DNA of 46,703 nt from a virus: positions 1 through 46,703 of IMG/VR virus record IMGVR_UViG_3300038566_000026; one strand, 5' to 3'. Below are positions 30,945 to 46,276 of this stretch, one piece after another. Under the pieces are notes generated by a model, which was not told the DNA's origin, did not search any database, and saw nothing but the letters and a program-made list of their open reading frames with translations. The translations under genes were made by a program, and so were the position numbers. The first letter of the stretch is position 1. Every line of letters starts with the position of its first letter.

Positions 30945-30945
30945 T

Positions 30946-31146: not shown

Positions 31147-31175
31147 GATTGTGACTCCTGTATTAACTTGAACTC

Positions 31176-31204
31176 AGTATAGGTCAGGCTAATACAGAAA
31201 GCAA
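31176..31204 (-). promoter_or_regulatory. GAGTTCA-class promoter, leftward
   Basis: On the minus strand TTGCTT (31204-31199), exactly 17 bases, then TATACT (31181-31176) followed immediately by GAGTTCAAG. The leader contains ACAGGAG. It is the best consensus match of this class on the minus strand, placed between ligase and the gene at 31146. Confidence 0.75.
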
Positions 31205-32098: not shown

Positions 32099-32355
32099 CA
32101 GTGCAATACTCCTTCAACTTTAATTTCTTGAAGCTCGCCTGGAACCATGTAGTTGGCCTGGATACCGTCAGCTCGGCATTGAAGCTCAAATATAACACAT
32201 TCCTTTCCGTCACGCATGACTATAGGAGGAATGCCAAATTGAATACAAAGCATTATTAGAGCATTAGTTGGCTGAATAGCTTCACCGCAATGAGGGCAAG
32301 TGGTATCAGACTCGTTAACCATATTCGGGCAGTGTGGACACATTACTTCGCTCAT
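32098..32355 (-). CDS. Zinc-ribbon small protein
   Basis: An 85-residue protein (MSEVMCPHC start). Residues 6-24 hold two CxxC knuckles, CPHC and CPHCG, spaced 14 residues apart, forming a zinc ribbon. The remaining 60 residues (ALIMLCIQFGIPPIVMRDGKEC and FELQCRADGIQANYMVPGEL) form a small alpha/beta domain. The start at 32355 follows AAGGTGGA and lies within the end region of the SEC-C gene. A longer GTG start at 32382 is rejected. It is probably a nucleic-acid or protein adaptor. Confidence 0.72.
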   Translation of the reverse strand: MSEVMCPHCPNMVNESDTTCPHCGEAIQPTNALIMLCIQFGIPPIVMRDGKECVIFELQCRADGIQANYMVPGELQEIKVEGVLH

Positions 32356-32357
32356 GA

Positions 32358-32531
32358 CTAATCCACCTTGCTTATACAGCACTTCTTGAACTTCTTACCG
32401 CTACCACAAGGACAAGCCATATTGCGATATTTGTTCTTGACTCTAGAACGCTTATGAGTCTTGTGAGACTGGTTAGGATATGCTTCCTCAACCTGAGGTT
32501 TCTCATGAGCTGTTACTGTTGATTCTTTCAT
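32358..32531 (-). CDS. SEC-C motif mini-protein
   Basis: A 57-residue protein, too short for many gene finders. The C-terminus carries CPCGSGKKFKKCC, a complete SEC-C zinc-binding motif like that at the end of SecA. The N-terminal 35 residues are polar and basic (NQSHKTHKRSRVKNKYRN). It abuts the zinc-ribbon gene and follows a small membrane-protein gene. Phage SEC-C proteins have no settled role. Binding to ribosome, SecB-type partners or nucleic acid is possible. Confidence 0.85.
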   Translation of the reverse strand: MKESTVTAHEKPQVEEAYPNQSHKTHKRSRVKNKYRNMACPCGSGKKFKKCCISKVD

Positions 32532-32539
32532 ATTATCAC

Positions 32540-32752
32540 CTATTTATGATTCCACCATACGCGGATACGAGTTACTGTTAAATGACCAAAGCCATATAGA
32601 CAAATTAGACTTCCCCATGCTACCGAATGCTTGCTATCACCTGCTCCGGTGAGAATCAGTATAGCACCGATGGTAATACATGCCCATGAAACTAGCTTAT
32701 TAAATTTCAGCCGCTTACTTGTCAGTTGAGTTGTTACAATTTGTTCATCCAT
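32540..32752 (-). CDS. Small two-helix inner-membrane protein
   Basis: A 70-residue protein with two hydrophobic helices, about residues 20-40 (LVSWACITIGAILILTGAG) and 45-60 (VAWGSLICLYGFGHLTV), and a basic tail. It lies within the replication-side leftward genes, not the lysis cassette. It may be an early host-membrane factor such as superinfection exclusion, but there is no direct evidence. Confidence 0.7.
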   Translation of the reverse strand: MDEQIVTTQLTSKRLKFNKLVSWACITIGAILILTGAGDSKHSVAWGSLICLYGFGHLTVTRIRVWWNHK

Positions 32753-32753
32753 G

Positions 32754-33299
32754 TTACTTCTCCTGATTAGGGTTTAATATACGATTCCACATCATTGTGA
32801 TGTAGCCAGCCTGAAACTTAGCATCTTCAAGAGCATTGTGACAGCCTTTTCTGTTTGTAGTCTTATTAAAGCCACCACGAGCTGACTCGTACATATCCAA
32901 TACGGTACGGCAATCACGGACGTTCCAAAACTTCCAAGGGATTTCAATACCGAGTTGTCGATAAGCATGTTCAAGACATGAGATGTCAAAAGTTGCACCG
33001 TTACCCCATACCTTACAGTCTTTCGGGAGCCACTCTGCAAGGGCGATTAGAGACTCTTCTAGTTCGTCCAAACCATCAAGAGCAGCGCGAGCCTCTTTAG
33101 ACTGTTTTGACCACCACTCCTGAGTTTCTGGACAGATGAAACGATCCTGGCTTTCCCAGTCGAGTTCCATATAGAAAGTCTCTTTGCTGACTTTGCCGTA
33201 TCGTGGATCAAAGATCACAGCTCCGATAGACACAATAGCCATTTCGGGAACCTTACCCATCGTTTCCAAGTCGATCATTACGTGTCTGAGTTTCTGCAT
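32754..33299 (-). CDS. DEDDh 3'-5' exonuclease (Rv2179c-like)
   Basis: A 181-residue RNase H-fold exonuclease. Motif I is VMIDLETMG (Asp10, Glu12), motif II is VWGNGATFDISCLEHA near 94 and motif III is GCHNALEDAKFQAGYI near 155, with the His of the DEDDh class. The arrangement resembles the Rv2179c-like exoribonuclease group rather than the Pol III epsilon group. It could degrade RNA or DNA ends in replication. The ATG at 33299 lies three bases past the upstream stop; an ATG three codons earlier overlaps that gene. Confidence 0.88.
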   Translation of the reverse strand: MQKLRHVMIDLETMGKVPEMAIVSIGAVIFDPRYGKVSKETFYMELDWESQDRFICPETQEWWSKQSKEARAALDGLDELEESLIALAEWLPKDCKVWGNGATFDISCLEHAYRQLGIEIPWKFWNVRDCRTVLDMYESARGGFNKTTNRKGCHNALEDAKFQAGYITMMWNRILNPNQEK

Positions 33300-33301
33300 G
33301 A

Positions 33302-33679
33302 TTACCACTCCTCATCTTCATCAAATATGTCTTCAAGTATTAAGCCGTAGACCTTCAAAACATTACCGCCTCCAGGTCTGACTATAAACCCACATTCTTC
33401 TAAATACAATTTAAAGTATTTCTTTTTAATCGGTGTTATCTTTAGCTCAGAACAGTAATGTTCGTAAGAAGAAAATAACTTGGCTAAGGTTACGTTGTCA
33501 GAAAGATCTGATTTACATATATGCTGATTGACAAATTTATCTACCGAACTTATATTGTCATAACGCTTACCAACAAGTCTACAGATACCTTTATTGATAT
33601 CGCCTCCTCCCAATTTTATAAGTCTGCTTTCAACTTCGCTATCTATAATGATATCTATATGTTTCACATTAAACCTCAC
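33302..33679 (-). CDS. RHH-like protein with primase C-terminal domain
   Basis: A 125-residue protein. The first 40 residues (IDIIIDSEVESRLIKLGGGD, then NKGICRLVGK) look like a ribbon-helix-helix DNA-binding motif. Residues 46-125 are homologous to the last 90 residues of the primase-helicase encoded upstream. Both have a FV start, a long helical stretch, GFIV-x-PGGGNVLKVYG-type sequence and an acidic end finishing in Trp. It is thus a detached copy of the primase's C-terminal domain attached to a new DNA-binding head. It might target the origin or regulate replication. Confidence 0.75.
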   Translation of the reverse strand: MRFNVKHIDIIIDSEVESRLIKLGGGDINKGICRLVGKRYDNISSVDKFVNQHICKSDLSDNVTLAKLFSSYEHYCSELKITPIKKKYFKLYLEECGFIVRPGGGNVLKVYGLILEDIFDEDEEW

Positions 33680-33956
33680 AACTAATAATTAGAGTTGTTA
33701 GTGTAGTTATTAAATCACAAATTGTAAAGGATTATTCTAACTTTTGTAACCCATAAACTCACCAGTCTAGAGCCAAGTTAGTAGGGTTATTAAATCAGGG
33801 TTAGTTTCAGTATCTTTTATAGCCCCTAATACCTATATACACATTAGAATCACTATATTTACAAAATCTTTTTCTTATACTTATAATAGTACCCTTCAAA
33901 GATAACTAAACTAACTGATAAACAATAACTCTTTAGAACCTAATAACTGCACTAAC
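33680..33956 (-). promoter_or_regulatory. AT-rich non-coding region, candidate regulatory/origin region
   Basis: 277 bases without a supported gene between the primase and its C-terminal-domain paralogue. It contains a twice-repeated GTTATTAAATCA-like word (33705-33716 and 33786-33797). The minus-strand words GTATAAGAAAAA (33880-33869) and TATATAGG (33839-33832) are shared with the portal-gene leader. A CTAGACTGGTGA stretch looks like the primase gene's last codons. It probably carries the promoter for the 33679 gene. An origin role is suggested only by AT-richness and the neighbouring replication genes. Confidence 0.45.
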
Positions 33957-36548
33957 TTACCAGTCTAAGTCCTCTTCCTTCTGTATGAGTTTACCACCAT
34001 AAACCTTGAGCACATTACCACCACCAACCTTTACGATGAAACCTAAGTCAACCAAGTCACGTTTGAAGTGTTGTTTCTTCTTACGCATTTTATCTTCTAT
34101 GTCGTTTTCTTGACACCAGGATTGATAAGTTAGATCGTATAATGTACCGAAGTCACCTGCACAGTCTTTACCATTGGTACTTGTCAAGTTTTCTTTTACG
34201 AACCTAACAACATTGTTCGCATGACCTAGCCATTCTTCCTTGGCAAGTTTGCACGACTCAGGTTCTAAGAAACGACCGCGATTACGCAAGCGTTGAAGAC
34301 CTTCAAGCATAAAGTTTAAAACTCCTGACATTTCTTTAGGGTCTTGGAGTATCTTTAATGGTCTGTCTAAATCCTCAGAACCTGTTTTGTCAAACTGACG
34401 GTTGAATGGAATCACGTTAGCGCGACGGAACATACCGTGTGATAAATCACGTGTAGCTGGGAAACCATTACTGCACATAATAAGATTCCCTGAGTACATA
34501 AAGTTGAAGGCTTCGCTCCCTTTAGGGTTAGCTTCCATCTTTGTATTCTCAGATAACATTTTCATACCAGCGTCTTTCAACAAGTAGTTAGCCGGAAGTT
34601 CCTCAATAATAACGCTGAGCTTTCCAATCAAACTGTTTGCCGCATGATTATAACTTTCGTTAGAACCAAGTGACAATAATTTAACACCAGTCATGAGTTG
34701 GGCGTCTTGCAATATTCCCTCAAGAATCTTAAGGATTGTCGATTTACCGTCACCGCCTGGACCTCTGAATAACCACCAAGATGCGATATTCTTATAAGGT
34801 TGAATCGTATAACCTAGCATCTCACCAACGTGACGAACCATATCATCTGTATCAGGGAAGTTTTCAAATATCTCATGTAGCGTCTGCATAAACAACGGAC
34901 ACTCGGCACTAGGGTCGTAATCAACATTCAAACAATTGAGTAAGTATGAACGATAGTTATGAGGTTTAAGTGTATGACTACCATCACGTTCAAGCCATAA
35001 CTCCCCATTCTTACAATTGATAACACTGTAAGGAAGTTCAGTCCTATGTAGTTTATCTTTTAGGGTTGCTACTGCGATTCTGCTCAACTTGACCGCCTGA
35101 TTAATAAGACTAAGTTCCTGACCGTCAATATCCATCTTTTCTTTTAATGAATATAAGGTTGTTTGAACTAACTTACCCATGAACTCATCCGATAAAGGTA
35201 TCCAGTGAGTATTGCGAAATCCGTAAATCATACCGCTAGGTGGGCATGTAAGATGTTTACCTTTATTGAAACTAACTTCCAATGTTTTGTCAGATATTAG
35301 GCGACCTAAGTCTCTATTGATTTTGGCCTCTAAGTCTTTCATCATTTGATTGATGGTGCTTTTAGAAAGTTTAGTTTTCTTTTGGAGTAAGTCTTTAGCA
35401 CGAGCCGATTCGTAAATGTCTGCATTTTTGATAAGGCGTAAACATTTAGCTATCTCCTCACCGGAAGGTTCGGGCGACATTGCGTTAATTGCTTCTATCG
35501 CTGCACCTTCAACCCCCTCTTCCATTTCGGGGTCGTCGTAAACATCGCTAACATCAATCTCCGCTGCGATACGTTTGGCCTGTTTAAGTAGTTCGGCTTC
35601 TTCTGTATCCTCATCATCAGATTCTAATTCAGGGTGAGTACTAAACTCCAATATAGCCCGAGCGTCGGACATATCTTCACCGTTCTGCTTAAGCTCACGA
35701 ATAAGAGATGCAGCAGTACGTTGGACGCTTTTAGTATCATCTAGTGATTCCCAGCGATTACGGATCTTGTTTTCATCACCTTCAAACTGAGTATCAGACA
35801 ACGACCAATCTAAGAACTCTTCAATACCATCACCAGCCGTAGCATGATGAGCAGCCATCATAATTGGCTCCCATGTATCATTACTATCGTAGTCGTTAAT
35901 ATCAAGCTTGCTTAATATTAAGTCGTAAAGCTGAGTTCCGTTAAACGCACCATAACCCGACTGATAATCTTTATCGGCTAGTTTATCGCGCTTAATAAGG
36001 AACAACAGTTCTTCCGGTACTACAGGGCGAGGAGCTTCGTTTTCCCATACATAGTAATCACCGTCAGGGTGTTTACTACCAGCGGCGACAACATAACCGC
36101 CTTTCTTTTTAAAGTCAACACCAGGAAGGTTATCAACACATTTACGAATCAGCTTATAGTCTACGTCATTTGGTAAGGTACAGTAGATGTGATAACCACC
36201 GCCACCAGTACGGACAACAGGTAATTCCCACATGAGTTCTTCAAAGTCAAAGAAGCCGAACAGTTCAGCTATTAACGCTTCTGAATCAATGTTGTCAACA
36301 TAGTTACGAGGGTCAAGGTCAACTATTAGTTCGTGTTCACCAATGCGATACCCGATATTGTAGCCAGACTCTATCCAGTGTTTTAACTGTTTGGCGTCCT
36401 GCTTATATTCTTTAGTGTTCCAATCATTATGAAGCGGTGTCTTACCACGTTGATCACCCTTAATCATCTTATTCCAAGGATAAAGAGGTATTAACTCGCC
36501 CTGGATGTGATCAGTGTAATGCTTCAATTGTTTTGATTTGTAGTTCAT
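33957..36548 (-). CDS. Bifunctional primase-polymerase / D5-type helicase
   Basis: An 863-residue replication protein. The N-terminal prim-pol domain (residues 10-180) has LIVDLDPRN with the DxD pair, VRTGGGGYHIYC and GGYVVAAGSKHPDG. A linker with PriCT-like and acidic segments follows. The C-terminal SF3 helicase of the P4/D5 type has WLFRGPGGDGKSTILKILEG (Walker A near 580), SVIIEELP (Walker B near 633) and LIMCSNGFPAT (motif C near 673). The last 90 residues form the domain duplicated in the next gene. It follows GGAGG and is second in the leftward early operon, after the HTH gene. Confidence 0.94.
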   Translation of the reverse strand: MNYKSKQLKHYTDHIQGELIPLYPWNKMIKGDQRGKTPLHNDWNTKEYKQDAKQLKHWIESGYNIGYRIGEHELIVDLDPRNYVDNIDSEALIAELFGFFDFEELMWELPVVRTGGGGYHIYCTLPNDVDYKLIRKCVDNLPGVDFKKKGGYVVAAGSKHPDGDYYVWENEAPRPVVPEELLFLIKRDKLADKDYQSGYGAFNGTQLYDLILSKLDINDYDSNDTWEPIMMAAHHATAGDGIEEFLDWSLSDTQFEGDENKIRNRWESLDDTKSVQRTAASLIRELKQNGEDMSDARAILEFSTHPELESDDEDTEEAELLKQAKRIAAEIDVSDVYDDPEMEEGVEGAAIEAINAMSPEPSGEEIAKCLRLIKNADIYESARAKDLLQKKTKLSKSTINQMMKDLEAKINRDLGRLISDKTLEVSFNKGKHLTCPPSGMIYGFRNTHWIPLSDEFMGKLVQTTLYSLKEKMDIDGQELSLINQAVKLSRIAVATLKDKLHRTELPYSVINCKNGELWLERDGSHTLKPHNYRSYLLNCLNVDYDPSAECPLFMQTLHEIFENFPDTDDMVRHVGEMLGYTIQPYKNIASWWLFRGPGGDGKSTILKILEGILQDAQLMTGVKLLSLGSNESYNHAANSLIGKLSVIIEELPANYLLKDAGMKMLSENTKMEANPKGSEAFNFMYSGNLIMCSNGFPATRDLSHGMFRRANVIPFNRQFDKTGSEDLDRPLKILQDPKEMSGVLNFMLEGLQRLRNRGRFLEPESCKLAKEEWLGHANNVVRFVKENLTSTNGKDCAGDFGTLYDLTYQSWCQENDIEDKMRKKKQHFKRDLVDLGFIVKVGGGNVLKVYGGKLIQKEEDLDW

Positions 36549-36559
36549 CCGAACCTCCG

Positions 36560-36793
36560 TTACAGGTCAGGACGTAAGTAATTAGCAGTGAAATGCTCTT
36601 TTAATGTTGGATGTTCCTCAACGAGCTTTGCCCCTGCTTTACTTATACGGCCACGAACTACCCACCCTTGAACGGTGCTGCTTGGTTGCCCTAGCATCTT
36701 GGCTAAATAGTGGTAACTGGTGGCTAAGGTAATAAGCTCCTCCAGATGCTCTTTGTGGAGCTGTTCAAGCTCTTCTTTTGTATGTTTTAACAT
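36560..36793 (-). CDS. Small helix-turn-helix regulator
   Basis: A 77-residue protein. Residues 20-62 (LITLATSYHYLAKMLGQPSS then TVQGWVVRGRISKAGAKLVE) form a Cro/YdaS-like HTH where VQGWVVRGR is the recognition helix. It is the first gene of the leftward unit, directly beside the divergent promoters, so it probably binds there and controls both directions. GGAG lies seven bases before its ATG. With no integrase in view it need not be a lysogeny repressor. Confidence 0.82.
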   Translation of the reverse strand: MLKHTKEELEQLHKEHLEELITLATSYHYLAKMLGQPSSTVQGWVVRGRISKAGAKLVEEHPTLKEHFTANYLRPDL

Positions 36794-36839
36794 TTATGTA
36801 CTCCGGCTTATATAGAGGGTTAAATAAGTAACAGACTCA

Positions 36840-36868
36840 ACTATGCGTCATAAAACACGTTTTGTAAA
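36840..36868 (-). promoter_or_regulatory. Leftward early promoter
   Basis: On the minus strand TTTACA (36868-36863), 17 bases, CATAGT (36845-36840). The predicted transcript starts about 40 bases before the HTH gene. It lies back-to-back with the rightward promoter, the two -35 boxes being 27 bases apart. Confidence 0.65.
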
Positions 36869-36895
36869 GCGTTAAAAATAAAATCGTAAAAAGGG

Positions 36896-36924
36896 TTGCA
36901 AAACAAATCACGCTTAGCTATAGT
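36896..36924 (+). promoter_or_regulatory. Rightward early promoter
   Basis: TTGCAA (36896-36901), 17 bases, TATAGT (36919-36924), the strongest consensus match in the control region. The transcript start would be near 36931. Its leader contains CCAGTTAAACAG, then AAGGAG before the ATG at 36988. The interval 36869-36895 between the divergent -35 boxes is a likely operator site. Confidence 0.8.
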
Positions 36925-36987
36925 GACATCACTGGCATCAAACAGCAAGCCAGTTAAACAGATAACCAACCTATTAAGGAGTCAGTA

Positions 36988-37620
36988 ATGACAAATCAAG
37001 TAACTTATGCAATTGAACTAACACCTGAGAACGCACCGAAGATTGACGCTATTAACCGCATCATCCTAGGTACAGCGTACACCAGCGTTGATAGCAAGGT
37101 TGCAGCTACTGAAATTGAAAAAGAAGCCACGACAGCCTCATCTAAAGCACCAGCCGCCAAAGAGCCAGCCAAAACTGAAACTTCGGGCTTAACCCTGGAT
37201 CAGGTCAAACGTGCTGCTAAGAAGGCTAAATCAGCCCATGATGAAGACTTCGCCAATAGCGTACTGGATAGCTTCGGTGTTAAAGAAGCTTCAACCCTTG
37301 GTCGCCGTATGTCTTCTATTGACGAGTCTGATTATCAGGCAATCGTTGACGCTTGGGCTGCTGGTCCACAAGTAGCTGAACAAGCCAGTGATGAGCCAGA
37401 AGATGATCTGGACGACGGTTTTGACGATGACGACGGCCTAGGCGATGATGAGTCTGAAGTAACGGCTGAAGCTGTTAAGACAGCTCTTAAGGCATACGCT
37501 AAAGAAGTCGGTCGTGACGAAGCTAAAGAAATCATGACTAAACACGGTGCAGCGGCACTAAGTAAAGTTGACGACTGTACTCCGGCTCAGTTGAAGGCAA
37601 TGTTCGCCGAATTGGTTTAA
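36988..37620 (+). CDS. Acidic two-domain protein, first rightward early gene
   Basis: A 210-residue protein. Two related helical units of about 50 residues, one near 68-122 (LTLDQVKRAAKKAKSAHDED...) and one near 157-210 (VTAEAVKTALKAYAKEVGRD...), share the pattern V-K-x-A-x3-A, a middle G, a serine-containing turn and an aromatic end. They are joined by an extremely acidic linker (EPEDDLDDGFDDDDGLGDDE). The N-terminal 35 residues may be a third small domain. Highly expressed acidic phage proteins can mimic DNA or bind ssDNA-binding proteins. No function can be assigned from sequence. Confidence 0.78.
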   Translation: MTNQVTYAIELTPENAPKIDAINRIILGTAYTSVDSKVAATEIEKEATTASSKAPAAKEPAKTETSGLTLDQVKRAAKKAKSAHDEDFANSVLDSFGVKEASTLGRRMSSIDESDYQAIVDAWAAGPQVAEQASDEPEDDLDDGFDDDDGLGDDESEVTAEAVKTALKAYAKEVGRDEAKEIMTKHGAAALSKVDDCTPAQLKAMFAELV

Positions 37621-37627
37621 TACCTTT

Positions 37628-37654
37628 TGTCCTGATGGCTCCGGCTGTCAGGAC
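37628..37654 (+). terminator. Probable terminator after acidic protein gene
   Basis: GTCCTGA/TCAGGAC (7 bp) with a GC-rich 12-base interior is followed by TATTTC. The T-tract is weak and is shared with the left arm of the following 15-bp hairpin. Confidence 0.6.
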
Positions 37655-37698
37655 TATTTCATAAAAGTAATGATTATTCCTTGCTTTTATGAAATAGT
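37653..37698 (+). repeat. Perfect 15-bp inverted repeat overlapping a promoter
   Basis: ACTATTTCATAAAAG (37653-37667) and CTTTTATGAAATAGT (37684-37698) are exact reverse complements with a 16-base loop. The right arm overlaps the -35 and spacer of the promoter at 37681-37709. It could be an operator or a second hairpin. The GC-rich hairpin followed by a 15-bp AT-rich hairpin also occurs at 21517-21577. Confidence 0.9.
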
Positions 37699-37709
37699 TA
37701 GGTAATAAT
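37681..37709 (+). promoter_or_regulatory. GAGTTCA-class promoter
   Basis: TTGCTT (37681-37686), 17 bases, AATAAT (37704-37709), then GAGTTCAAG. It shares GTAATAATGAGTTCAAG with the promoter at 41527. The leader element AACAGTTAAACAGG (37723-37736) provides the Shine-Dalgarno of the next gene. Confidence 0.7.
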
Positions 37710-37745
37710 GAGTTCAAGCTAAAACAGTTAAACAGGAAACCAGTT

Positions 37746-38543
37746 ATGTCTAAGTCAAACCTAGTTCTTATCATCAAAGAATACGTCACTCAAGCCAATA
37801 AGCACTATAGCGATGTTCGTAAACGTGTTATGGAAAAGGCTGCGACAGCTAATAATGACCTTGAACCTACTGTAGATTGTTACGGTCGTCTTCACGCTCC
37901 TTGTGATGGATATCACTGGGAAGATAATATTTATCCTGGTGGGTCTTACTTACCTTTACCTCCTGAATTTTACGAAATGCTTAGTGAATTATCAGGTCGT
38001 GATTGCTTTCCTTCTAGTAATAAATTTAAAGGTCGTACCACTCGTATTAAGTCTAACATATCTGAAGCTAAGGAAATCAGTGAGTCTTGTAAAGATTACG
38101 CCAAAGTCGGAAGCGGTAAAGTTTGGGATGACGGTATTACTTGCTATGTCTATATTGAAACGACTCGTAATAAGCTGACTGAGCTGGTTGAGCTATATAA
38201 GCAAGAACAAGAAGAAATCCGCAAAGCTAAAATAGAAGCTGAGCGTAAAGCTAAGAAAGCTCTTAAAGGCGAAGCTCCTGAAGGTCGTGTTCATGTCAAA
38301 GGTAAAGTCTTAGCTATAAAAGAAGTTCAAGGTAAGAGTTTCAGCTATTACGATAGCGGTATTAGTTATAAAATGCTTGTAGAATTAGAAAATAAATCTA
38401 CAGTATGGGGTTCAATACCTTCTAAAATATACGATGTAGAAGTAGGTCAAAATATTGAATTCACAGCTACATTCTCAAAAGCTGAAAATGACGATACTCA
38501 TGCTTTTTATAAGCGACCAGCTAAAGCTAAATTGTTAAATTAA
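37746..38543 (+). CDS. Phage protein with C-terminal OB-fold-like domain
   Basis: A 265-residue protein. Residues 1-150 have HAPCDGYHWEDNIYPGGSYLPL and no recognised fold. Residues 150-180 are a basic-acidic coiled coil. Residues 180-265 (GRVHVKGKVLAIKEVQGKSF, KMLVELENKSTVWGSIPSKI, GQNIEFTATF and AFYKRPAKAKLL) match a domain common in phage early genes that looks like an OB fold. Nucleic-acid binding is plausible. It is first behind its own promoter (37681). Confidence 0.78.
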   Translation: MSKSNLVLIIKEYVTQANKHYSDVRKRVMEKAATANNDLEPTVDCYGRLHAPCDGYHWEDNIYPGGSYLPLPPEFYEMLSELSGRDCFPSSNKFKGRTTRIKSNISEAKEISESCKDYAKVGSGKVWDDGITCYVYIETTRNKLTELVELYKQEQEEIRKAKIEAERKAKKALKGEAPEGRVHVKGKVLAIKEVQGKSFSYYDSGISYKMLVELENKSTVWGSIPSKIYDVEVGQNIEFTATFSKAENDDTHAFYKRPAKAKLLN

Positions 38544-38570
38544 CTTTAAACAGTGAAACAGGAGAACAGT

Positions 38571-38786
38571 ATGAAAACTTTAACTATCTTAGTAGTCGCG
38601 CTTTTAATGTCAGCGTGTTCATCTAACCCTAACCAACAATTCTTTGACGAAGCTGAATTATTCAACAGAGCTTCCGCCATGTATTGTGACGACAAAGGTG
38701 TTAGAACTTACATGCAAGGTAACAGAGGTATTTTGTTTATCGTGTGTAAAGATGGTACTCGTTTTACAATAAACGGAGGTATCTAA
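38571..38786 (+). CDS. Small lipoprotein
   Basis: A 71-residue protein with a signal peptide and lipobox, MKTLTILVVALLMSACSS (lipidated Cys17; Ser-Ser after it would favour outer-membrane sorting). The mature 55 residues contain two more cysteines (YCDDKGVRTYMQ and FIVCKDGTRFTING), probably a disulphide-linked beta hairpin. The start at 38571 follows AGGAGAACAGT. As an early lipoprotein it is a candidate for superinfection exclusion, inferred only from class and timing. Confidence 0.82.
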   Translation: MKTLTILVVALLMSACSSNPNQQFFDEAELFNRASAMYCDDKGVRTYMQGNRGILFIVCKDGTRFTINGGI

Positions 38787-39118
38787 TGGAAACTAATATG
38801 TCCGATGAAAGTTGGGCTAATTGGTTAGCCGAGTGGGAGGAGTCATTAGAATATCTATATGGTTCCTCCACTCAAGCTAAACCACCAGCTCCACGGCAAT
38901 CTAGCGAACCCATTGCATCCGGTAAAGATTCAAAGGTCTATAGCTTTATTAGAAAGGTCAGAAGTACAGCCAAGGCGACATTCTTCTTAACAGAAGACGG
39001 TATAGCTGGTGACTTTGGATTCTGGTGTCCTAAATCGGCAATTCTACAAACTAAGAAAAATGAGGTAGAAATTGCTAAATGGTGTAAACTGAAAATTATT
39101 CAATATACGGAGTATTAA
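38786..39118 (+). CDS. Hypothetical protein
   Basis: A 110-residue protein starting METNMSDESWANWLAEWEES, Trp- and Glu-rich at the N-terminus. A proline/serine linker (AKPPAPRQSSEP) follows, then a small domain (KDSKVYSFIRKVRSTAKATFFLTEDG and IAGDFGFWCPKSAI). The start overlaps the lipoprotein stop (TAATG) after GGAGG. The C-terminal part may be a small nucleic-acid-binding beta domain. No family was recognised. Confidence 0.72.
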   Translation: METNMSDESWANWLAEWEESLEYLYGSSTQAKPPAPRQSSEPIASGKDSKVYSFIRKVRSTAKATFFLTEDGIAGDFGFWCPKSAILQTKKNEVEIAKWCKLKIIQYTEY

Positions 39119-39120
39119 AG

Positions 39121-40377
39121 ATGGCCGATTTGGTTGAAGAAAAAGCTCATGCGCGATTATCACCTTCGGGTGCTAAGCGTTGGATGACATGTCCGGGTTC
39201 CATTCAGTTAGCTGAAAAGTTAGGTATTAAAGACAAGACGTCTAAGTATGCCGCTGAAGGTACTGTTGCTCACGAAGTACACGAACTCTGTCTTGTTAAA
39301 AAGCAGCAAGCGAAAGAGTATCTTGGTCGCACCATTGAAGCAGATGGTATGAAGTTCAAAGTCAATCAGAATATGGTTGATGCCGTTCAGTTAAGCCTTG
39401 ATTATATCTGGGACAGAATTGAAATGGCTGATTTGGAAGGCTTACGTGTAGAAATACAGGTTGAAGTCCGTTCCTCACTTGAGTATCTGGGTATTCCTGG
39501 TCTTGATGGCGGTACTTCTGACGTCGTGTTATTGTTCTGGAATGATCAAGACGACTTGGTAGCTATTGAAGTATTTGACTATAAGCACGGAGCAGGGGTA
39601 GCGGTAGAAGCTATTGATAATCCTCAGGCTATGTGTTACGGCTTGGGTATTGTTGAAAAATACGATGCTAATCCAGAAACTACTATTGAGATAACTATTT
39701 CTCAGCCTAGAGCACACCATCCTGACGGTCTTATTCGTACTTGGACTACTAAGGCTAAAGAGCTTAGAAACTGGCAAGATGAAGAGCTTGTACCAGCCGC
39801 TAAGGAAACACAGAACCCTGATGCAGACTTAGTACCTAGTGACAGCGGTTGCCGCTTCTGTAAAGCTGCTGGAGACTGTCCAAAGCTGTTTGAGCGTACC
39901 CAAGAAGTCGCGATGATGGACTTTGATGACCCAGAGCCACAACTACCCGACGTTCAGAAACTAACTGCCGATCAGAAGCGTTTCGTTATGGATCATGCGG
40001 CTATGTTGCGTTCGTTTATCGTAGCGGTGGAAGACCAAGTTAAGTCAGAAGTTGATCACGGAAGTAAAGAGTACGAGGGTCACTATAAGCTCGTACGCAA
40101 AACTACCCGTCGTAAGTTTATTGAAGACGCTACTGATGAACTTGTGTCCCCATTGTTTGATCACCTGGAACACGGAGATGTCTTTGAAGAAAAGTCACGC
40201 TCTATGACAGAAATTGAACGTCGTCTTAAGAAAGCTGTAGGAGCTAAGGCGGCGAAAGAAATTATGGCTGACATTACCACTAAGCCCGAAGGGGAACTGG
40301 TAATAGCACCACAAACTGACAAGCGTAAGGCCGTAGAGCCTACTATTGTTAGTGACTTTACAGGCTTAGAAAATTAA
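39121..40377 (+). CDS. DUF2800 PD-(D/E)XK nuclease-like protein
   Basis: A 418-residue DUF2800 protein, a RecB/Cas4-like nuclease. The N-terminal ARLSPSGAKRWMTCPGSIQLAE box has its conserved Cys. The active-site region is GLDGGTSDVVLL, then VAIEVFDYKHGAG (Asp, Glu/Asp-x-Lys) near residues 125-160. The cluster SGCRFCKAAGDCP near 240 completes an Fe-S-binding cysteine set with the N-terminal Cys. It probably works with the DUF2815 protein next door in recombination or end processing; the two families are regularly adjacent in phages. Confidence 0.9.
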   Translation: MADLVEEKAHARLSPSGAKRWMTCPGSIQLAEKLGIKDKTSKYAAEGTVAHEVHELCLVKKQQAKEYLGRTIEADGMKFKVNQNMVDAVQLSLDYIWDRIEMADLEGLRVEIQVEVRSSLEYLGIPGLDGGTSDVVLLFWNDQDDLVAIEVFDYKHGAGVAVEAIDNPQAMCYGLGIVEKYDANPETTIEITISQPRAHHPDGLIRTWTTKAKELRNWQDEELVPAAKETQNPDADLVPSDSGCRFCKAAGDCPKLFERTQEVAMMDFDDPEPQLPDVQKLTADQKRFVMDHAAMLRSFIVAVEDQVKSEVDHGSKEYEGHYKLVRKTTRRKFIEDATDELVSPLFDHLEHGDVFEEKSRSMTEIERRLKKAVGAKAAKEIMADITTKPEGELVIAPQTDKRKAVEPTIVSDFTGLEN

Positions 40378-40385
40378 GCCATAAT
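40357..40385 (+). promoter_or_regulatory. Promoter for DUF2815 gene
   Basis: TTTACA (40357-40362), 17 bases, CATAAT (40380-40385); the -35 lies in the end of the DUF2800 gene. The leader contains AACAGTTAAAAAGG (40414-40427), the element seen after other promoters. Confidence 0.7.
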
Positions 40386-40437
40386 AACCACGACCATTCG
40401 GTCAATCAACTTAAACAGTTAAAAAGGAAACAGTCTA

Positions 40438-40986
40438 ATGGCTAAAGTAATTATTCAAAACGTTCGTTGTTCTTATGTATTCGTAACCGAGCCTCGCAAG
40501 GGCGATAACGGTGAAGATGGTAAGTATTCCCTTCAGGTCATTCTACCGAAAGACCACGCTCAAGTCAAAAAGATCAAGGCCGCTATTAAAGCCGCTGCTG
40601 AAGAAAAGTTTGGCTCCAATGTTAAGATGGGTATGCTGAAGCTTCCTCTACGTGACGGTGACGAAGAACGCGAAGGTGAAGAATACGAGGGTTGTTACTT
40701 CCTGAATGCGAACTCTGCTCGTAAGCCTGGAATCGTAAATCGTAACAACGAACCTGCTGACCAAGATGACTTGGAAGAGTATTGCTACTCCGGTGCATAC
40801 TTCCACGCATCTGTCAACTTTTACGCCTACAACTTTGAAGGTAAGAAAGGCGTTGCAGTTGGTTTGAACAACGTCATGCTTCGTAAGAAAGGTGAACGTC
40901 TTGACGGTGCGGTTGCCGCCACAAGTGAGTTCTCTGATTTTGCAGATGGGGATGACGAAACTGACAACGGTGATGACGACTGGTAA
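40438..40986 (+). CDS. DUF2815 single-stranded DNA-binding-like protein
   Basis: A 182-residue DUF2815 protein with an OB fold. It opens MAKVIIQNVRCSYVFVTEPR, then GKYSLQVILPKDHAQVKKIKAAI, a central DGDEEREGEEYEGCYFLNANS strand and FYAYNFEGKKGVAVGLNNVML. The C-terminus is acidic (FADGDDETDNGDDDW), ending in Trp like the acidic tips of SSB proteins that recruit partners. It has its own promoter and terminator, consistent with high expression. Confidence 0.9.
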   Translation: MAKVIIQNVRCSYVFVTEPRKGDNGEDGKYSLQVILPKDHAQVKKIKAAIKAAAEEKFGSNVKMGMLKLPLRDGDEEREGEEYEGCYFLNANSARKPGIVNRNNEPADQDDLEEYCYSGAYFHASVNFYAYNFEGKKGVAVGLNNVMLRKKGERLDGAVAATSEFSDFADGDDETDNGDDDW

Positions 40987-40997
40987 GCAGTTGAGGG

Positions 40998-41022
40998 GAG
41001 GGGCTTCGGCTCCTCTTTCTTT
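40998..41022 (+). terminator. Intrinsic terminator after DUF2815 gene
   Basis: GAGGGGC/GCTCCTC (7 bp, one G-U) with a TTCG tetraloop is followed by TTTCTTTA. It ends three bases before the ATG of the next open frame. Confidence 0.85.
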
Positions 41023-41025
41023 ATT

Positions 41026-41235
41026 ATGAACGATAATCAAATGTGGACTTGGACTTTAAATATGTGTATTGCCGCTTATATGCACCGTGACCCTGATACT
41101 CAGGTTCGTAGGATGGCAAAACGCTATAAGAAATTAACAAATAACAAAACTACACAGCGGACGCTTAGAACCATCATAAAGAGTAGTCGGCCGTCCTTAG
41201 TGGTTAAGGTAGCCTATGATGAACTCACCAATTAG
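41026..41235 (+). CDS. Small basic hypothetical protein
   Basis: A 69-residue frame (MNDNQMWTWTLNMCIAAYMH start) with a basic helical second half (VRRMAKRYKKLTNNKTTQRTLRTIIKSS). The ATG lies three bases after a terminator's T-tract and has no visible ribosome binding site. It overlaps the next frame by 20 bases. It is probably real because the interval would otherwise be empty on both strands, but the evidence is modest. Confidence 0.5.
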   Translation: MNDNQMWTWTLNMCIAAYMHRDPDTQVRRMAKRYKKLTNNKTTQRTLRTIIKSSRPSLVVKVAYDELTN

Positions 41236-41551
41236 ATCGCTCCCACAGGCCGGAGCAAACGGGTTAAGACCTAGCGATATAAGCCCCTATAAACACCGCT
41301 CAGCCCTTGCTAAGCGACAAGCCCGTGACAAGGCTATAGACGTCCTACAGCGGCTAGTATTAGGTCGTACAGAAACCTCCATATTACCTCCTCACCTAAT
41401 ATCCGAACTTTGGCACAACATAGCCGATAATGGACTAAAAACGTCCAAATTAATACTCTGGGACGCCTTTGATGGCGGTACTAACTTCAGGTTAGAAGAA
41501 AAGTCCCGAATTAGTTCAAATAGTCCTTGCAAGCTCATCCATGATGAGTAA
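41216..41551 (+). CDS. Hypothetical protein
   Basis: A 111-residue frame. The first 35 residues are polar (SPIRSLPQAGANGLRPSDIS), and the middle is helical (RSALAKRQARDKAIDVLQRLVL). ILPPHLISELWHNIADNGLK follows. Codon choice is richer in C-ending codons than the neighbours. Its stop lies in the -10 region of the promoter at 41527. No family was recognised. Confidence 0.55.
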   Translation: MMNSPIRSLPQAGANGLRPSDISPYKHRSALAKRQARDKAIDVLQRLVLGRTETSILPPHLISELWHNIADNGLKTSKLILWDAFDGGTNFRLEEKSRISSNSPCKLIHDE

Positions 41552-41555
41552 TAAT
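41527..41555 (+). promoter_or_regulatory. GAGTTCA-class promoter for modification-side operon
   Basis: TTGCAA (41527-41532), 17 bases, AATAAT (41550-41555), then GAGTTCAAG. A double leader element (AACAGCTAAACAG followed by TTAAAACAGG, 41591-41613) precedes the next ATG. This is the last promoter I can see before the hypermodification genes. Confidence 0.7.
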
Positions 41556-41622
41556 GAGTTCAAGGTTAAGCAATACCGCTTAGCCCCTAAAACAGCTAAA
41601 CAGTTAAAACAGGAAAACAGCC

Positions 41623-42261
41623 ATGAATACTAAACTTACTATCCGCACCGAAGCCCAAATCACCGAGCTTAAACTGTCTGAAATCACTACCATCAACAAT
41701 GAGTTTGCAGTCGCTAACGGTACTAAAGAAACCAAGCGTTTCGGTACTAAGCCAGCGGCTATCAAAAAGTGTCTATCAAATCAGGCGGCTTATGTTGAAC
41801 AGCGTGACCAATACCTAGCTGACAATAAGGATCCAGTTGAAGACTTTATTGAAAAAGGCGGCGAGGTTACACAATGTCCACCGCAAAAGAACCCTAAGCA
41901 AAAAGCACCTACTTCTAAAAGTGCTTTGTTATCTACTAAGGGTAATCGTTTAGGTCGTTCAGGTGGCGAACGCAAGCCAGCTAATTCATTCTCAATGAAT
42001 ATTGGTGGTTCACGTATTGTTTACGACATCCCAACTACTTTGGTATCTGTTGTAAAAACTACCGACAAAGCTGATTCAATGGTCGGTACGTTAATCCAAG
42101 CAATAGAAGACAGCTTGGAGCCAACAGTTGAAGAAATAGTTAATTATGTTGTCACTAACTATAAGCGTCCTAAAAGTGCTAAAGAAGTTGACCGCTCATT
42201 CGTAATTCGTAAAATCAAACGTGCTGTTCAAAAAGGTTACTTGAAACTTGAGTCAGCATAA
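41623..42261 (+). CDS. Unknown protein with C-terminal helical domain, upstream of modification genes
   Basis: A 212-residue protein. The N-terminal 70 residues (LSEITTINNEFAVANGTKET and the KRFGTKPAAIKKC box) resemble a short conserved phage motif with phenylalanine and tyrosine contacts. A basic linker follows (residues 85-115). The C-terminal 60 residues (MVGTLIQAIEDSLEPTVEEI and KIKRAVQKGYLKLES) look like a winged helix. A similar C-terminal plan recurs in the next gene (42311), suggesting duplicated DNA-binding proteins. The function is unknown. It is followed by a terminator. Confidence 0.75.
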   Translation: MNTKLTIRTEAQITELKLSEITTINNEFAVANGTKETKRFGTKPAAIKKCLSNQAAYVEQRDQYLADNKDPVEDFIEKGGEVTQCPPQKNPKQKAPTSKSALLSTKGNRLGRSGGERKPANSFSMNIGGSRIVYDIPTTLVSVVKTTDKADSMVGTLIQAIEDSLEPTVEEIVNYVVTNYKRPKSAKEVDRSFVIRKIKRAVQKGYLKLESA

Positions 42262-42271
42262 TTTATAATAA

Positions 42272-42300
42272 GGCTCTGGGAAACCGGAGCCTAAACTTTT
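42272..42300 (+). terminator. Intrinsic terminator between the two unknown proteins
   Basis: GGCTCTGG/CCGGAGCC (8 bp, one U-G) with a GAAA tetraloop is followed by TAAACTTTT. GGAGG of the next gene begins immediately after it. Confidence 0.8.
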
Positions 42301-42310
42301 GGAGGTCATC

Positions 42311-42925
42311 ATGTTTTACGCAATAGATTTCGACACTAGGTCAGTTGAATCAAAAAGCACCGACGGTGAAATACTTGCTGCTTATATTATAGATAACGAT
42401 CTTACTATGGCTGTAGCCTTAGTGGATAGTGAAGATGAATTATGTCTTCAATTTAGCTTAGGTGAGATGCAAGAGCTGTCTAAGAATTTGGGCGGCAATA
42501 AAGAATATGAGTCTGATGAACAGGCCGCTGAATGGTGTTGGCGTTTATTGGAACAATCTCAAGATGACTTCCCAAAGTTTACAAACGCACTAGGTAAAAA
42601 GCTACTCAAAGCAGCCGCTAGACGTTGCAAAGACAGCCCTAGTAAAAGTACCAGTGGTAACGCTGCAAAGCCAGCCAGGAAGCCTAGAACGTCTTCTAAA
42701 CCTGCTGGTAAACGACCAACAGATGCAACAGTACTAACCCTTGGTAAACAACCGAAGGAAACCACTGTTCTATTTAAAGTATGGCAAACCGTTGAGGATA
42801 ACCTTGGTGATATGTCAATAGGTGATATCGTGGCTGAATGCGAGTTAGACGAGCAACAATGCCGCAAGCAGATATCACGCTGTATCCGTAAAGAAGTTCT
42901 AATTAAAGTAGAGGAAGAGTTATGA
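42311..42925 (+). CDS. Unknown protein directly upstream of 5-hmdU kinase
   Basis: A 204-residue protein. The N-terminal 80 residues are acidic and alpha/beta (MFYAIDFDTRSVESKSTDGE). A Lys/Ser/Pro-rich linker is at about 105-145. The C-terminal 55 residues (FKVWQTVEDNLGDMSIGDIV then QCRKQISRCIRKEVLIKVEE) look like a winged helix similar to the end of the 41623 protein. The start at 42311 follows GGAGG; an ATG four codons earlier is unlikely. It overlaps the kinase by four bases, so it is translationally coupled to the modification genes and is a candidate DNA-targeting partner. Confidence 0.75.
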   Translation: MFYAIDFDTRSVESKSTDGEILAAYIIDNDLTMAVALVDSEDELCLQFSLGEMQELSKNLGGNKEYESDEQAAEWCWRLLEQSQDDFPKFTNALGKKLLKAAARRCKDSPSKSTSGNAAKPARKPRTSSKPAGKRPTDATVLTLGKQPKETTVLFKVWQTVEDNLGDMSIGDIVAECELDEQQCRKQISRCIRKEVLIKVEEEL

Positions 42926-43494
42926 TAATTAATATTCGAGGCACAAGTGGTTCAGGTAAAACCACTCTTATCCGTAAGTTCTTTGAGTTATGTGACAGCA
43001 AAGAAACTATTCAACCAGCCGATAGCAAAAAGCCAAAGGGCTATAAATGCTCATATAAGGGTGAGACTATTTTTGTAGTCGGGTCTTATGAGAATGTTTG
43101 TGGTGGTTGCGATACTGTATCCACACAAGATGAAATTGAACAGTTGATTGAAGACTATGCGTTTGACGGTCATGTATTGTTTGAGGGCTTATTTATATCC
43201 CACATCTACGGACGTTATGCTGAGATGGCTAAACGTGATCCAGACAACTTTGTTTTCATTATGTTGGAAACTCCGTTTGATACCTGTATGGATCATATTA
43301 GACAGCGTCGTGAAGCTTCTGGTAAGTCTACCGTTCTAAAAGACAGTGTTTTTAACAATGCCCGTAAAACATACGACTCTACCTATCGTATTCGTAACAA
43401 GCTCACAAACGACGGCCTGACTTGGGAAGAATTACCATTGGAAAACCGCTTCCAGTTGTTTGAAGAGTTTCTAGACTTTTATTTGGGAGTGTGA
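42922..43494 (+). CDS. P-loop 5-hydroxymethyl-dU DNA kinase
   Basis: A 190-residue P-loop kinase with Walker A RGTSGSGKTTLIRKFF (Gly7-Thr15) and a Walker B-like strand HVLFEGLFIS near 75-85. A lid-type arginine segment follows (CMDHIRQRREASGKSTVLKD) near 125. This matches the phage 5-HMUDK family, which phosphorylates 5-hydroxymethyl-dU in DNA to a (pyro)phosphorylated intermediate for further substitution. Its direct neighbours, an aGPT-PPlase-type gene and a TS-like hydroxymethylase, are the family's usual partners. Activity on DNA rather than free nucleotide is inferred from the family. Confidence 0.85.
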   Translation: MIINIRGTSGSGKTTLIRKFFELCDSKETIQPADSKKPKGYKCSYKGETIFVVGSYENVCGGCDTVSTQDEIEQLIEDYAFDGHVLFEGLFISHIYGRYAEMAKRDPDNFVFIMLETPFDTCMDHIRQRREASGKSTVLKDSVFNNARKTYDSTYRIRNKLTNDGLTWEELPLENRFQLFEEFLDFYLGV

Positions 43495-43495
43495 T

Positions 43496-44344
43496 ATGCT
43501 TACACCAAATCAGGAACAACTAATCTATTGGATAACTGAACGTGAGTCTATTCGTAAGAAGAAAGAAGCTAGCCTACCTGCACCTTGGTCAGATAACCCT
43601 GTTATGCAAGTGACCTATTTCTGCAACGTGAATCGTGAAGATGATAAAGTCACCAAGTGGATACGACAGAACTGGACTTACCCTTGCGATACATTGGGTG
43701 AGGAGTGTTCTGAGTATTATGACTTCGCTATGATCGTGGCTCGTATCTTTAATCTACCTTCTACGCTTGAAGAGCTTCAGCAACCGATAGAAACTTACTA
43801 CTGGTTAGAACATGCAGAAGAGGTATTTCATGACCGCAAGGTACGAGGTGACAATATATGGAACGGAGCTTATATTATCTCAACGAACGGTAAGAAAATG
43901 GATAAAGCATCGTATTGTTTGATGCTTCTAGAAAAACTTGCAAAGTCGCACAAAGTCACGCATAATTGCTCTACGCTTAAAGAAGCTCATCAAGCACTTA
44001 TGAAGGTTGAAGGCTTGGCTAGTTTCTTAGCTGCTCAGGTGGTAGCTGACCTTAAGAACACTGTCGGTCATCCACTTAATAAGGCTGAGGACTGGTTCAC
44101 ATTTAGCGCTCCAGGTCCAGGTAGTCTTAGAGGGCTTAGTTGGTTCTTTGAAGAAAAAGTATCAGCAAAGAATTATCATGAGAAGATTAAAGAGGCTTAT
44201 GAAATATTGGAGTTTGAGTTACCGGAAGAAATACTTGAATTCTTATGTTTCCAAAACCTTCAAAATTGTTTCTGTGAGTATGATAAATTCATGCGGGTGA
44301 CAAACGGAACAGGTCGTTCAAAACGTAAATATAAAGGTAATTAA
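43496..44344 (+). CDS. aGPT-PPlase / HMUDK-helical family protein
   Basis: A 282-residue helical protein. A region with DTLGEECSEYYDFAMIVARIFN (residues 63-85) and WLEHAEEVFHDRKVRGDNIW precedes LASFLAAQVVADLKNT and AEDWFTFSAPGPGSLRGL near residue 205. The GPGSLRGL loop is typical of the alpha-glutamyl/putrescinyl-thymine pyrophosphorylase and 5-hmdU-kinase helical families. It is expected to act on the kinase product in DNA, possibly transferring a substituent to the methylene. The acidic middle and basic end (SKRKYKGN) are visible. A truncated second copy begins the window. Confidence 0.75.
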   Translation: MLTPNQEQLIYWITERESIRKKKEASLPAPWSDNPVMQVTYFCNVNREDDKVTKWIRQNWTYPCDTLGEECSEYYDFAMIVARIFNLPSTLEELQQPIETYYWLEHAEEVFHDRKVRGDNIWNGAYIISTNGKKMDKASYCLMLLEKLAKSHKVTHNCSTLKEAHQALMKVEGLASFLAAQVVADLKNTVGHPLNKAEDWFTFSAPGPGSLRGLSWFFEEKVSAKNYHEKIKEAYEILEFELPEEILEFLCFQNLQNCFCEYDKFMRVTNGTGRSKRKYKGN

Positions 44345-44345
44345 A

Positions 44346-45365
44346 ATGAAAGTATTAAATGTAAGAAACGCGATTGAAGCATTGGGTCAGGGTATCCATC
44401 TAATTAAACATGGCGGTGAACACATTGACAGCCGAGCGGGTATGACGATTGAAGTTCCTTCACCAGTGGCTACAACATACAGCCATCCATGGGAACGTGT
44501 GTTAATTAGCAAGGTTCGTGACGCTAACCCATTCTTCCACTTAATGGAAGCTATGTGGATTCTAGCTGGTCGTGAGGATGTTAAATTCCTTACTGAGTTC
44601 AATAAGCGTATGGTTGAATATAGCGACGACGGTCAGGTATTCAATGCCCCATACGGTTATCGTCTACGGAATGGTAATTGTAACGCTCATTTAGATCAAT
44701 TGTCTGAAGTTATAAAACTATTAGAACGCGACCCAAATAGCCGTCAAGCCGTCTGCCAAATTTGGGATGAGGATGACCTTGTTCACACCACTAAGGACAA
44801 GGCTTGCAATATGTCCTTAGTGTTCCGCATCCGTAACGGCAAGCTCTGTATGACGGTCTACAATCGTTCTAACGATATGATCTGGGGTGCTTACGGTGCA
44901 AACGTAGTTCAGTTTAGTATGATTCAGGAATACGTCGCAGCTCATCTGGGACTACCGCTTGGCGAATACACTCAGGTCAGCAATTCTTACCATATTTATA
45001 CTGAAGATGCTGGCGGTGCTGTGTGGGATCGCTTGAAAGATAACTATGACGGTTATTCATCTATTTATGATGAAGCTATTCATAATACTGTTTATATGTT
45101 GCCGCATGACATGCCAGCGTTTGAACATGACATCCTTCAGTTCTTTAACGCTTATGACCAATTCGGTATTGAAGAACTAGGTGAACTTCGTTGCTGGCAA
45201 TCGCAGTATTTTAATCAGTTAATCATGCCTGTACTTTGCATCTATCTGATCCACAAGCAACATGGTCCAGAACAGGCTTTGAAGTATACTCACACCATCT
45301 TAGCAGATGATTGGAAACTGGCGTGTGAAGACTGGCTTACTAACCGTATGGAGGCTCGTAAATAA
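44346..45365 (+). CDS. Thymidylate-synthase-like dUMP hydroxymethylase (second copy)
   Basis: A 339-residue protein, about 96 percent identical by eye to the protein at 173-1192, with the same Cys154 (DKACNMSLVF) and Asn186. In this copy the gene stands in its complete context, directly after the aGPT-PPlase-type gene (one base after its stop) and overlapping the HD gene by one base. On a circular genome it is the same gene as the first copy from another strain. Confidence 0.88.
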   Translation: MKVLNVRNAIEALGQGIHLIKHGGEHIDSRAGMTIEVPSPVATTYSHPWERVLISKVRDANPFFHLMEAMWILAGREDVKFLTEFNKRMVEYSDDGQVFNAPYGYRLRNGNCNAHLDQLSEVIKLLERDPNSRQAVCQIWDEDDLVHTTKDKACNMSLVFRIRNGKLCMTVYNRSNDMIWGAYGANVVQFSMIQEYVAAHLGLPLGEYTQVSNSYHIYTEDAGGAVWDRLKDNYDGYSSIYDEAIHNTVYMLPHDMPAFEHDILQFFNAYDQFGIEELGELRCWQSQYFNQLIMPVLCIYLIHKQHGPEQALKYTHTILADDWKLACEDWLTNRMEARK

Positions 45366-45871
45366 TGAATATAAGAAATATACTTCATAGCGGTGACGTG
45401 GTTCGTTTTCACAACCATGTTGGTATTGACAAACAAAAGACAGCCGAACATCAATGGGGCGTTGCACTTATTGTTGAGCACATTTATCCAGAAGGTTCTA
45501 AAACATTGCTTCTAGCAGCTCTAACTCACGATGCAGCGGAATATTATATTGGCGATATTCCCGCACCTGTTAAGTGGGATAACCCTGAGCTCAAGAAAAC
45601 ATTGCATGAGATGGAACGTCGGTGGGAGGAACAAAACGGCGTTCATTTTGACTTGGCTCCTGAAGAACAAATGGTTCTTAAAATGGCAGACACCCTAGAA
45701 GGAATGTGGTTCTGTGTTCATCAGGTTCGTATGGGTAACATAAACGCCAAGAGACCTTTTCGCAAATGGCGTGAGTTCTTTCAAGATAGTTTCACTGTCG
45801 TTTGTTCTAATCACTTTACTAAAGCAGGTGAATTATTTCACGCATTGGTTCAAGAAATGGAGGAGCTGTAA
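45365..45871 (+). CDS. HD-domain 5'-deoxynucleotidase-like protein (second copy)
   Basis: A 168-residue version of the protein at 1192. All metal-binding residues of the HD signature (THDAAEYYIGDIPAPVK) and EHQWG are kept. Residues 85-105 and the last 25 residues differ (SFTVVCSNHFTKAGELF instead of TFSDVMPKYPKAFEFY), including one extra codon. The changes lie outside the active site. Confidence 0.85.
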   Translation: MNIRNILHSGDVVRFHNHVGIDKQKTAEHQWGVALIVEHIYPEGSKTLLLAALTHDAAEYYIGDIPAPVKWDNPELKKTLHEMERRWEEQNGVHFDLAPEEQMVLKMADTLEGMWFCVHQVRMGNINAKRPFRKWREFFQDSFTVVCSNHFTKAGELFHALVQEMEEL

Positions 45872-46275
45872 TGGACGTAAACGAATATCAAATTGGTGGC
45901 GACCACTACAACAAGCGCAATTATCAGCATTGGGATTTTGTGTGCGATGCAAACCTTCATTATCTGTTAGGTTGTGCCACCAAGTATTCCCGCTGGCGTG
46001 ATAAAAACGGTCTTCAGGACTTGCGTAAAATCGCCCATTATATTTCCAAGGCTGAAGACCGTGATGTTTGGCCTCCAGGATTGGAAACCATTGAAGAGCA
46101 GGTTGAAAAGTTTGCTAGTCAGTTCGAACATAAGGATGATCGTGAGCTTATTGTTCTTATTTGTTCCGGCGAGTATGAAGCGGCTCAAAAGCTGATTTGT
46201 GAAATGATTGACGAAGCTGAATGCGGTCCGACTGCAAACTATGTTGATCCTGACAAAAATTACATCCGAGGTTAA
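45871..46275 (+). CDS. DUF3310 protein (second copy)
   Basis: A 134-residue version of the protein at 1695. The IGGDHY start, YLLGCATKY, DKNGLQDLRK and the ECGP...NYVDPDKNYIRG end are shared. Residues 67-112 (RDVWPPGLETIEEQVEKFAS and the following helix) bear almost no resemblance to the other copy, as if a cassette had been exchanged between conserved flanks. Confidence 0.85.
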   Translation: MDVNEYQIGGDHYNKRNYQHWDFVCDANLHYLLGCATKYSRWRDKNGLQDLRKIAHYISKAEDRDVWPPGLETIEEQVEKFASQFEHKDDRELIVLICSGEYEAAQKLICEMIDEAECGPTANYVDPDKNYIRG

Positions 46276-46276
46276 T

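Follow-up and report, generated by a model that had tools for sequence, protein, structure and literature searches.

The DNA analysed here is a phage record from IMG/VR of 46,703 bases (41% G+C), and we refer to this whole stretch as the window. It contains genes for a DNA polymerase (labelled polymerase B in named relatives), a primase, exonucleases, a terminase and a portal protein. The large terminase is divided between two overlapping open reading frames on the minus strand, 27651–28397 and 28387–29256, which match successive parts of phrog_38, and a gene at 30946–31146 (minus strand) encodes a homologue of T4 Cef, a modifier of suppressor tRNAs, in a record in which we found no tRNA gene. 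The window starts with a 17-base random-PCR (SISPA) primer tag, GTTTCCCAGTCACGATC, that is also printed in published papers, and positions 18–2518 are 84% identical to 44190–46703. Because relatives carry this sequence as a single copy, and one of them (G001) fuses the right copy to window position 2701 and onward at 100% identity, we regard the left 2.5 kb as a probable strain chimera or wrap-around, and the apparent pair of thymidylate synthases as a probable assembly artefact.

Four sites in the window match the pattern TTGNNN, 17-bp spacer, NATANT, GAGTTCA. Promoter 1 (5390–5425, plus strand) consists of a –35 element TTGCTT (5390–5395), a 17-bp spacer, a –10 element CATACT (5413–5418), the discriminator GAGTTC (5419–5424) and a predicted start A (5425), and lies upstream of a denV-like UV-repair gene (5451–5867). 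Promoter 2 (31204–31169, minus strand; TTGCTT-17-TATACT-GAGTTCA) precedes the Cef-like gene, promoter 3 (37681–37716, plus strand; TTGCTT-17-AATAAT-GAGTTCA) precedes gene 37746–38543, and promoter 4 (41527–41562, plus strand; TTGCAA-17-AATAAT-GAGTTCA) precedes gene 41623–42261. These exact matches, all of which also fit TTGC-N20-ATANT-GAGTTCA, bear out the first-pass annotation in its description of four –10 elements that run straight into GAGTTCA behind 17-bp spacers. The expected count of the pattern was 0.005 (mean over 200 second-order Markov sequences) compared to the four observed, and a reversed control pattern had no match in the window. The same annotation had placed the word on both strands and before replication, repair and late genes; both strands are indeed used, but the minus-strand copy precedes the Cef-like gene and no late gene.

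A fifth member, promoter 5 (36896–36931, plus strand; TTGCAA-17-TATAGT-GACATCA), lies upstream of gene 36988–37620; the first-pass annotation had not tied this site to the word. It scored 34, versus 12.8 for the next site, with a profile in which it was itself one of the five training rows, and it was recovered again by a clade-left-out profile with the discriminator masked. All five promoters sit directly 5′ of genes, with a Shine-Dalgarno sequence 3′ of the word, and the start codon falls 23–61 nt past the word at the four GAGTTCA promoters. As a bare word, GAGTTCA occurs 11 times in the window versus 7.2 expected, which is chance level, and the seven other copies have no intact –35/–10 pair before them; thus, only the fixed position after the –10 element is enriched. 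A generic sigma70 scan of 29000–46703 returned 52 sites compared to 40.7 in shuffled sequences, indicating that lists of generic sigma70 sites, such as the nine promoters with 17-bp spacers of which the first-pass annotation named five, mean little here. The divergent promoter of the operon that holds a helix-turn-helix (HTH) gene and the primase gene (36840–36868, minus strand; TTTACA-17-CATAGT) falls outside the GAGTTCA family, and a similar site is present in the relative G002.

The first-pass annotation had named a lack of GAGTTCA conservation at orthologous sites as the result that would count against it, and we ran this comparison on DNA polymerase relatives fetched from IMG/VR, whose records were read in pieces. 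The family recurs at orthologous positions, the most distant relatives concerned having about 59–62% polymerase identity, and promoters are kept before orthologous genes even at 20–50% protein identity. Promoter 1 is identical in G001 and conserved before the denV-like gene in G002 and G003, and three relatives with 59% polymerase identity (L044, L069 and L106) have an exact GAGTTCA at the corresponding place. Promoter 2 is conserved before the same Cef-like gene in G002 and G004, promoter 3 in G002 and, with GAATTCA, in G003, and promoter 4 in G002 and G003 and, with GAAATCA or GAATTCA, in G007, G008, G010 and G012; the gene 41623 orthologues behind promoter 4 in these six relatives share 20–90% protein identity. 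An orthologue of promoter 5 precedes gene 36988 in G002, G007, G010 and G012. Family promoters also occur before gene 4640 in G007, G008 and G009, and upstream of the terminase region in L101, where the word is exact. In this comparison, close relatives have the word unchanged and distant relatives have degenerate forms of it. A spacer of exactly 17 bp, which had been offered as a mark of the family, does hold for the copies in the window, but 17 bp is the normal sigma70 optimum and a G007 copy near position 210 is best read with a 16-bp spacer.

Profile searches found no match in the cultured relatives R7M and Loki and only weak look-alikes in Klebsiella phage Kmi2C. A pattern search of IMG/VR found 103 stretches with a 17-bp spacer; shortening the spacer to 16 bp gave 48, and the reversed control gave 52. 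Contigs of this phage group account for about 10 of the 103, and the remaining excess is modest, as would be expected of a combination that is just a good promoter. Behind promoter 3, gene 37746–38543 is replaced in G002 and G003 by genes without detectable similarity while the promoter is kept, and a protein search with this gene found no relatives in IMG/VR; this position is possibly a cargo slot.

In a comparison of 26 sites, conservation falls at columns –42 to –40 (A/T), –35 to –32 (TTGC), –17 (T), –11 to –7, –6 and –5 (GA), and –2 to +1 (TCA), with –4 and –3 loose. The family design comprises an A/T block at –42 to –40, a TTGC(T/A)T –35 element, a 17-bp spacer with T at –17, and an (A/C/T)ATA(A/C)T –10 element. 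The training sites of the profile were found partly via the discriminator, and several of its rows come from close relatives. Because the sites had first been collected partly through the word, we rescanned with –6 to +1 hidden and with each clade left out of training in turn. Among the top 19 matches, which include close relatives and so are not 19 independent events, G–6 was present in 19, A–5 in 18 and A+1 in 17, with the first exceptions at rank 20 and lower. These counts show that the conserved core is GA-nn-(T/C)(C/T)-A rather than GAGTTCA as such.

With a discriminator of the usual six bases, the final A of GAGTTCA is the predicted +1, so that the word would cover exactly –6 to +1, in line with the proposal that it spans the discriminator and start site. 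Transcription preferentially starts 7 bp past the –10 element (PMC5730371), sigma makes contacts at –6 to –4, and the core recognition element of RNA polymerase extends from –4 to +2 (PMC10911233). The C–1 and A+1 of the family sites fit the pyrimidine –1 and purine +1 expected of a start about 7 bp past the –10 element, +1 itself being predicted from the letters. The kept letters (G–6, A–5, the pyrimidine at –1 and A+1) are those read by sigma, by RNA polymerase and in start selection, which supports the earlier suggestion that the word may tune initiation.

Predicted leader hairpins fit this placement of the start. A hairpin at 36931–36954 (plus strand; ACTGGC...GCCAGT, z –2.9) would have its stem begin at +1 of the promoter 5 transcript, and another at 41564–41585 (plus strand; GGTTAAGC-aatacc-GCTTAGCC) would begin at +3 of the promoter 4 transcript. 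In relatives, the promoter 4 element (TTAAGC-AATACC-GCTTA) is confined to leaders of this family, with a single loose match in G005 as the exception. An alignment of six such leaders had 93.8% paired cells and no two-sided changes, and we rejected the hairpin as a covarying RNA element, since covariation adds nothing beyond conservation. The leader word CAGTTAAACAG was likewise rejected as a separate signal; it occurs in close relatives only in the leaders of this set and is read as part of the leader ahead of the ribosome-binding site. Around promoter 3, a terminator-like hairpin (37629–37654, plus strand) lies between gene 36988–37620 and the promoter, and G002 has a hairpin with a UUCG loop at the same place. 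A 15-bp perfect inverted repeat (37653–37698, plus strand), with one compensated change from T-A to C-G in G002, has its right arm over part of the –35 element and spacer of promoter 3. Rfam gave no match in the window.

The first-pass annotation had also counted in a late promoter at 29681 with GAGGTCA. This site (29674–29709, minus strand) reads TTTACT-17-TATATT, and GAGGTCA does follow its –10 element, at 29686–29681, within a conserved AATTTAC...TATATTGA...GCCGGAAATATAGAT arrangement. Of the relatives checked, the majority retain (A)ATTTAC...TATATT ahead of gene 29243, usually followed by a sequence resembling GCCGGAAATATAGAT, but the bases after the –10 element vary freely among orthologues (GAGGCTA, GAAGGCA, GAAACTA, ACCCTTA and GAATTTC). 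We therefore rejected this site as a family member and assign it to a separate, late class.

The closest known parallel to the family design is found in phage T5, in which all genes are transcribed by host sigma70 RNA polymerase only (PMC7472727). We examined the 38 annotated T5 promoters in records AY543070 and AY587007, including the N25 promoter; most have TTGC(T/A), a 17-bp spacer and TATAAT, and several discriminators end in TTCA. The T5 early layout (TTGCTT, 17, TATAAT, NGATTCA) matches that of the family, and the two have in common a TTGC(T/A) –35 element, a 17-bp spacer, an ATAAT –10 element, and a six-base discriminator that often ends in TTC before an A start. In both, many copies are present per genome, on both strands and often beside terminators. 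Five copies of a multi-copy consensus with a shared discriminator occur in the window and are conserved in relatives, and the masked profile picks several T5 early promoters. In T5, however, the discriminator mostly has A as its first base (ATATTCA, AGATTCA) and TAAATTGA comes after it, whereas in the family it begins with GA and the leaders carry (A)AACAG...AGGA; no copy equals T5 in both discriminator and downstream sequence (ATATTCA TAAATTGA). This mismatch suggests that the family works like a T5 promoter rather than being one, and we take the resemblance as one of design that need not imply shared ancestry.

In phage lambda and in early T7, the masked profile found nothing scoring 10 or more. 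Read from the start sites of lambda PR and PL, these promoters (GATAAT-GGTTGC-A and GATACT-GAGCAC-A) have the same discriminator length as the family and the same G–6. They differ in having –35 elements of TTGACT and TTGACA and overlapping CI/Cro operators, for which we saw no counterpart in the family.

Could GAGTTCA be an operator through which a phage regulator switches the set jointly on or off? The first-pass annotation had suggested such a regulator, with a small HTH protein as the binding candidate. This 77-residue protein (36560–36793, minus strand) matches PHROG 2856, a transcriptional regulator, with an E-value of 1.7e-8, and has homologues 44–62% identical in seven relatives. The recurrence of one word at four promoters, the location of this conserved gene beside the divergent promoter region, and the inverted pair of GAGTTC at promoter 1 would each suit an operator. 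Among the features of operators (a dyad, repeated half-sites, out-of-register copies), however, that inverted partner is the only one we found, and the other three promoters have no second half-site. GAGTTCA itself has no dyad, is not in excess away from promoters, and varies at its middle letters (–4 and –3) from one relative to another, whereas the letters that sigma and RNA polymerase read are retained. T5, moreover, has a similar shared discriminator and uses host polymerase alone (PMC7472727). Given the missing dyad, the lack of stand-alone copies and the unconserved middle letters, we dropped this reading, which we regard as very unlikely; nothing in our results links the HTH protein to GAGTTCA, although relatives keep it.

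The explanation that we favor, and consider very probable, is that these are multi-copy, strong host sigma70-type promoters of the T5 early design, with GAGTTCA serving as discriminator and start A and with no need for a regulator. Sequence, position, conservation and predicted folding are what the analysis shows, whereas sigma70 use, start site, strength and hairpin function are inferred. The –35 and –10 hexamers stand at about 17-bp spacing, and the phage most likely carries at least five copies of one promoter type for host RNA polymerase. In mechanistic terms, G–6 and A–5 would contact sigma region 1.2 and stabilize the open complex, initiation would be fixed 7 bp past the –10 element by the (T/C)(C/T)A end, and host sigma70 polymerase would suffice without a phage regulator. 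The bases of promoter 1 may have a second, post-transcriptional role: in RNA that arrives from upstream, they would mask the ribosome-binding site of the denV-like gene and its start codon by base pairing.

A counter-possibility is a phage-coded co-factor of host RNA polymerase: the set might be read as middle promoters by a host polymerase that the phage has modified, or with the help of a phage co-activator, by a logic like that of T4 middle or phiEco32-like promoters. The separation of the family from the late class is compatible with this idea, as is the family –35 element TTGC, which deviates from the E. coli consensus TTGACA, although T5 has TTGC too. Both the –35 and –10 elements are nevertheless intact at optimal spacing, so an activator would have no absent element to stand in for. 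In addition, we detected no sigma70 region 2 or 4 domain in four genomes, in searches with working positive controls. The absence of a phage polymerase refers to PHROG annotation of about 40 open reading frames, most of the remaining frames lying in the structural region; a search for single-subunit RNA polymerase (PF00940) lacked a working control and was given no weight. On this evidence we judge a modified polymerase or co-activator unlikely.

Promoter 1 also has a predicted RNA-level feature. A perfect 12-bp inverted repeat (5413–5453, plus strand) pairs CATACTGAGTTC (5413–5424), which is the –10 element plus discriminator of promoter 1, with GAACTCAGTATG (5442–5453), which comprises the end of the Shine-Dalgarno sequence and the whole ATG start codon (5451–5453) of the denV-like gene. 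No 12-bp repeat of this kind appeared in eight Markov sequences, although the window itself holds several others, and the same hairpin is present in G002 and G003. Predicted folding gave –16.7 kcal/mol (z –4.6) for read-through RNA but –1.4, with no structure, for RNA begun at the predicted promoter 1 start. In read-through RNA the hairpin would thus block translation of the denV-like gene, and mainly RNAs begun at promoter 1 would be translated. The stop codon of the upstream open reading frame lies 7 nt before the 5′ arm, and a ribosome terminating there might open the hairpin.

Pairing this complete raises the question of whether GAGTTCA is kept mainly for RNA reasons, such as 5′ leader structure or ribosome-binding-site pairing, instead of initiation. 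Promoters 2–4, however, have no such partner, and L044, L069 and L106 keep the exact word although they lack the partner arm and no longer have the denV-like gene beside the promoter. We therefore consider conservation mainly for RNA reasons extremely unlikely. Absence of the arm where GAGTTCA stays suggests that the promoter word is older and that the start region of the denV-like gene adapted to it.

The arrangement at promoter 1 resembles that of T4 genes e, soc, 49 and I-TevI, in which the ribosome-binding site is buried in a hairpin of the read-through RNA and a promoter that overlaps the 5′ arm yields hairpin-free RNA (PMC3014915). By predicted folding, promoter 1 follows the same logic, with a hairpin in read-through RNA that is lost from promoter-derived RNA. 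T4 uses late promoters (gp55) for this purpose, for example upstream of lysozyme, whereas here the elements are a sigma70-like promoter and a UV-repair gene. One 12-base word might accordingly determine the site of transcription initiation as well as which transcripts are open to translation, applying the T4 gene e logic at an early or middle promoter of an unrelated phage group; we consider this proposal about as likely as not. If true, the denV-like case would show a device known from T4 late promoters at work on a sigma70 promoter. More broadly, a promoter consensus with predicted starts would make operon structure and gene timing predictable in this group of uncultured siphophages, and the family would represent, besides T5, a further phage in which the discriminator and start are fixed along with the –35 and –10 elements, which bears on what makes promoters strong for host polymerase.
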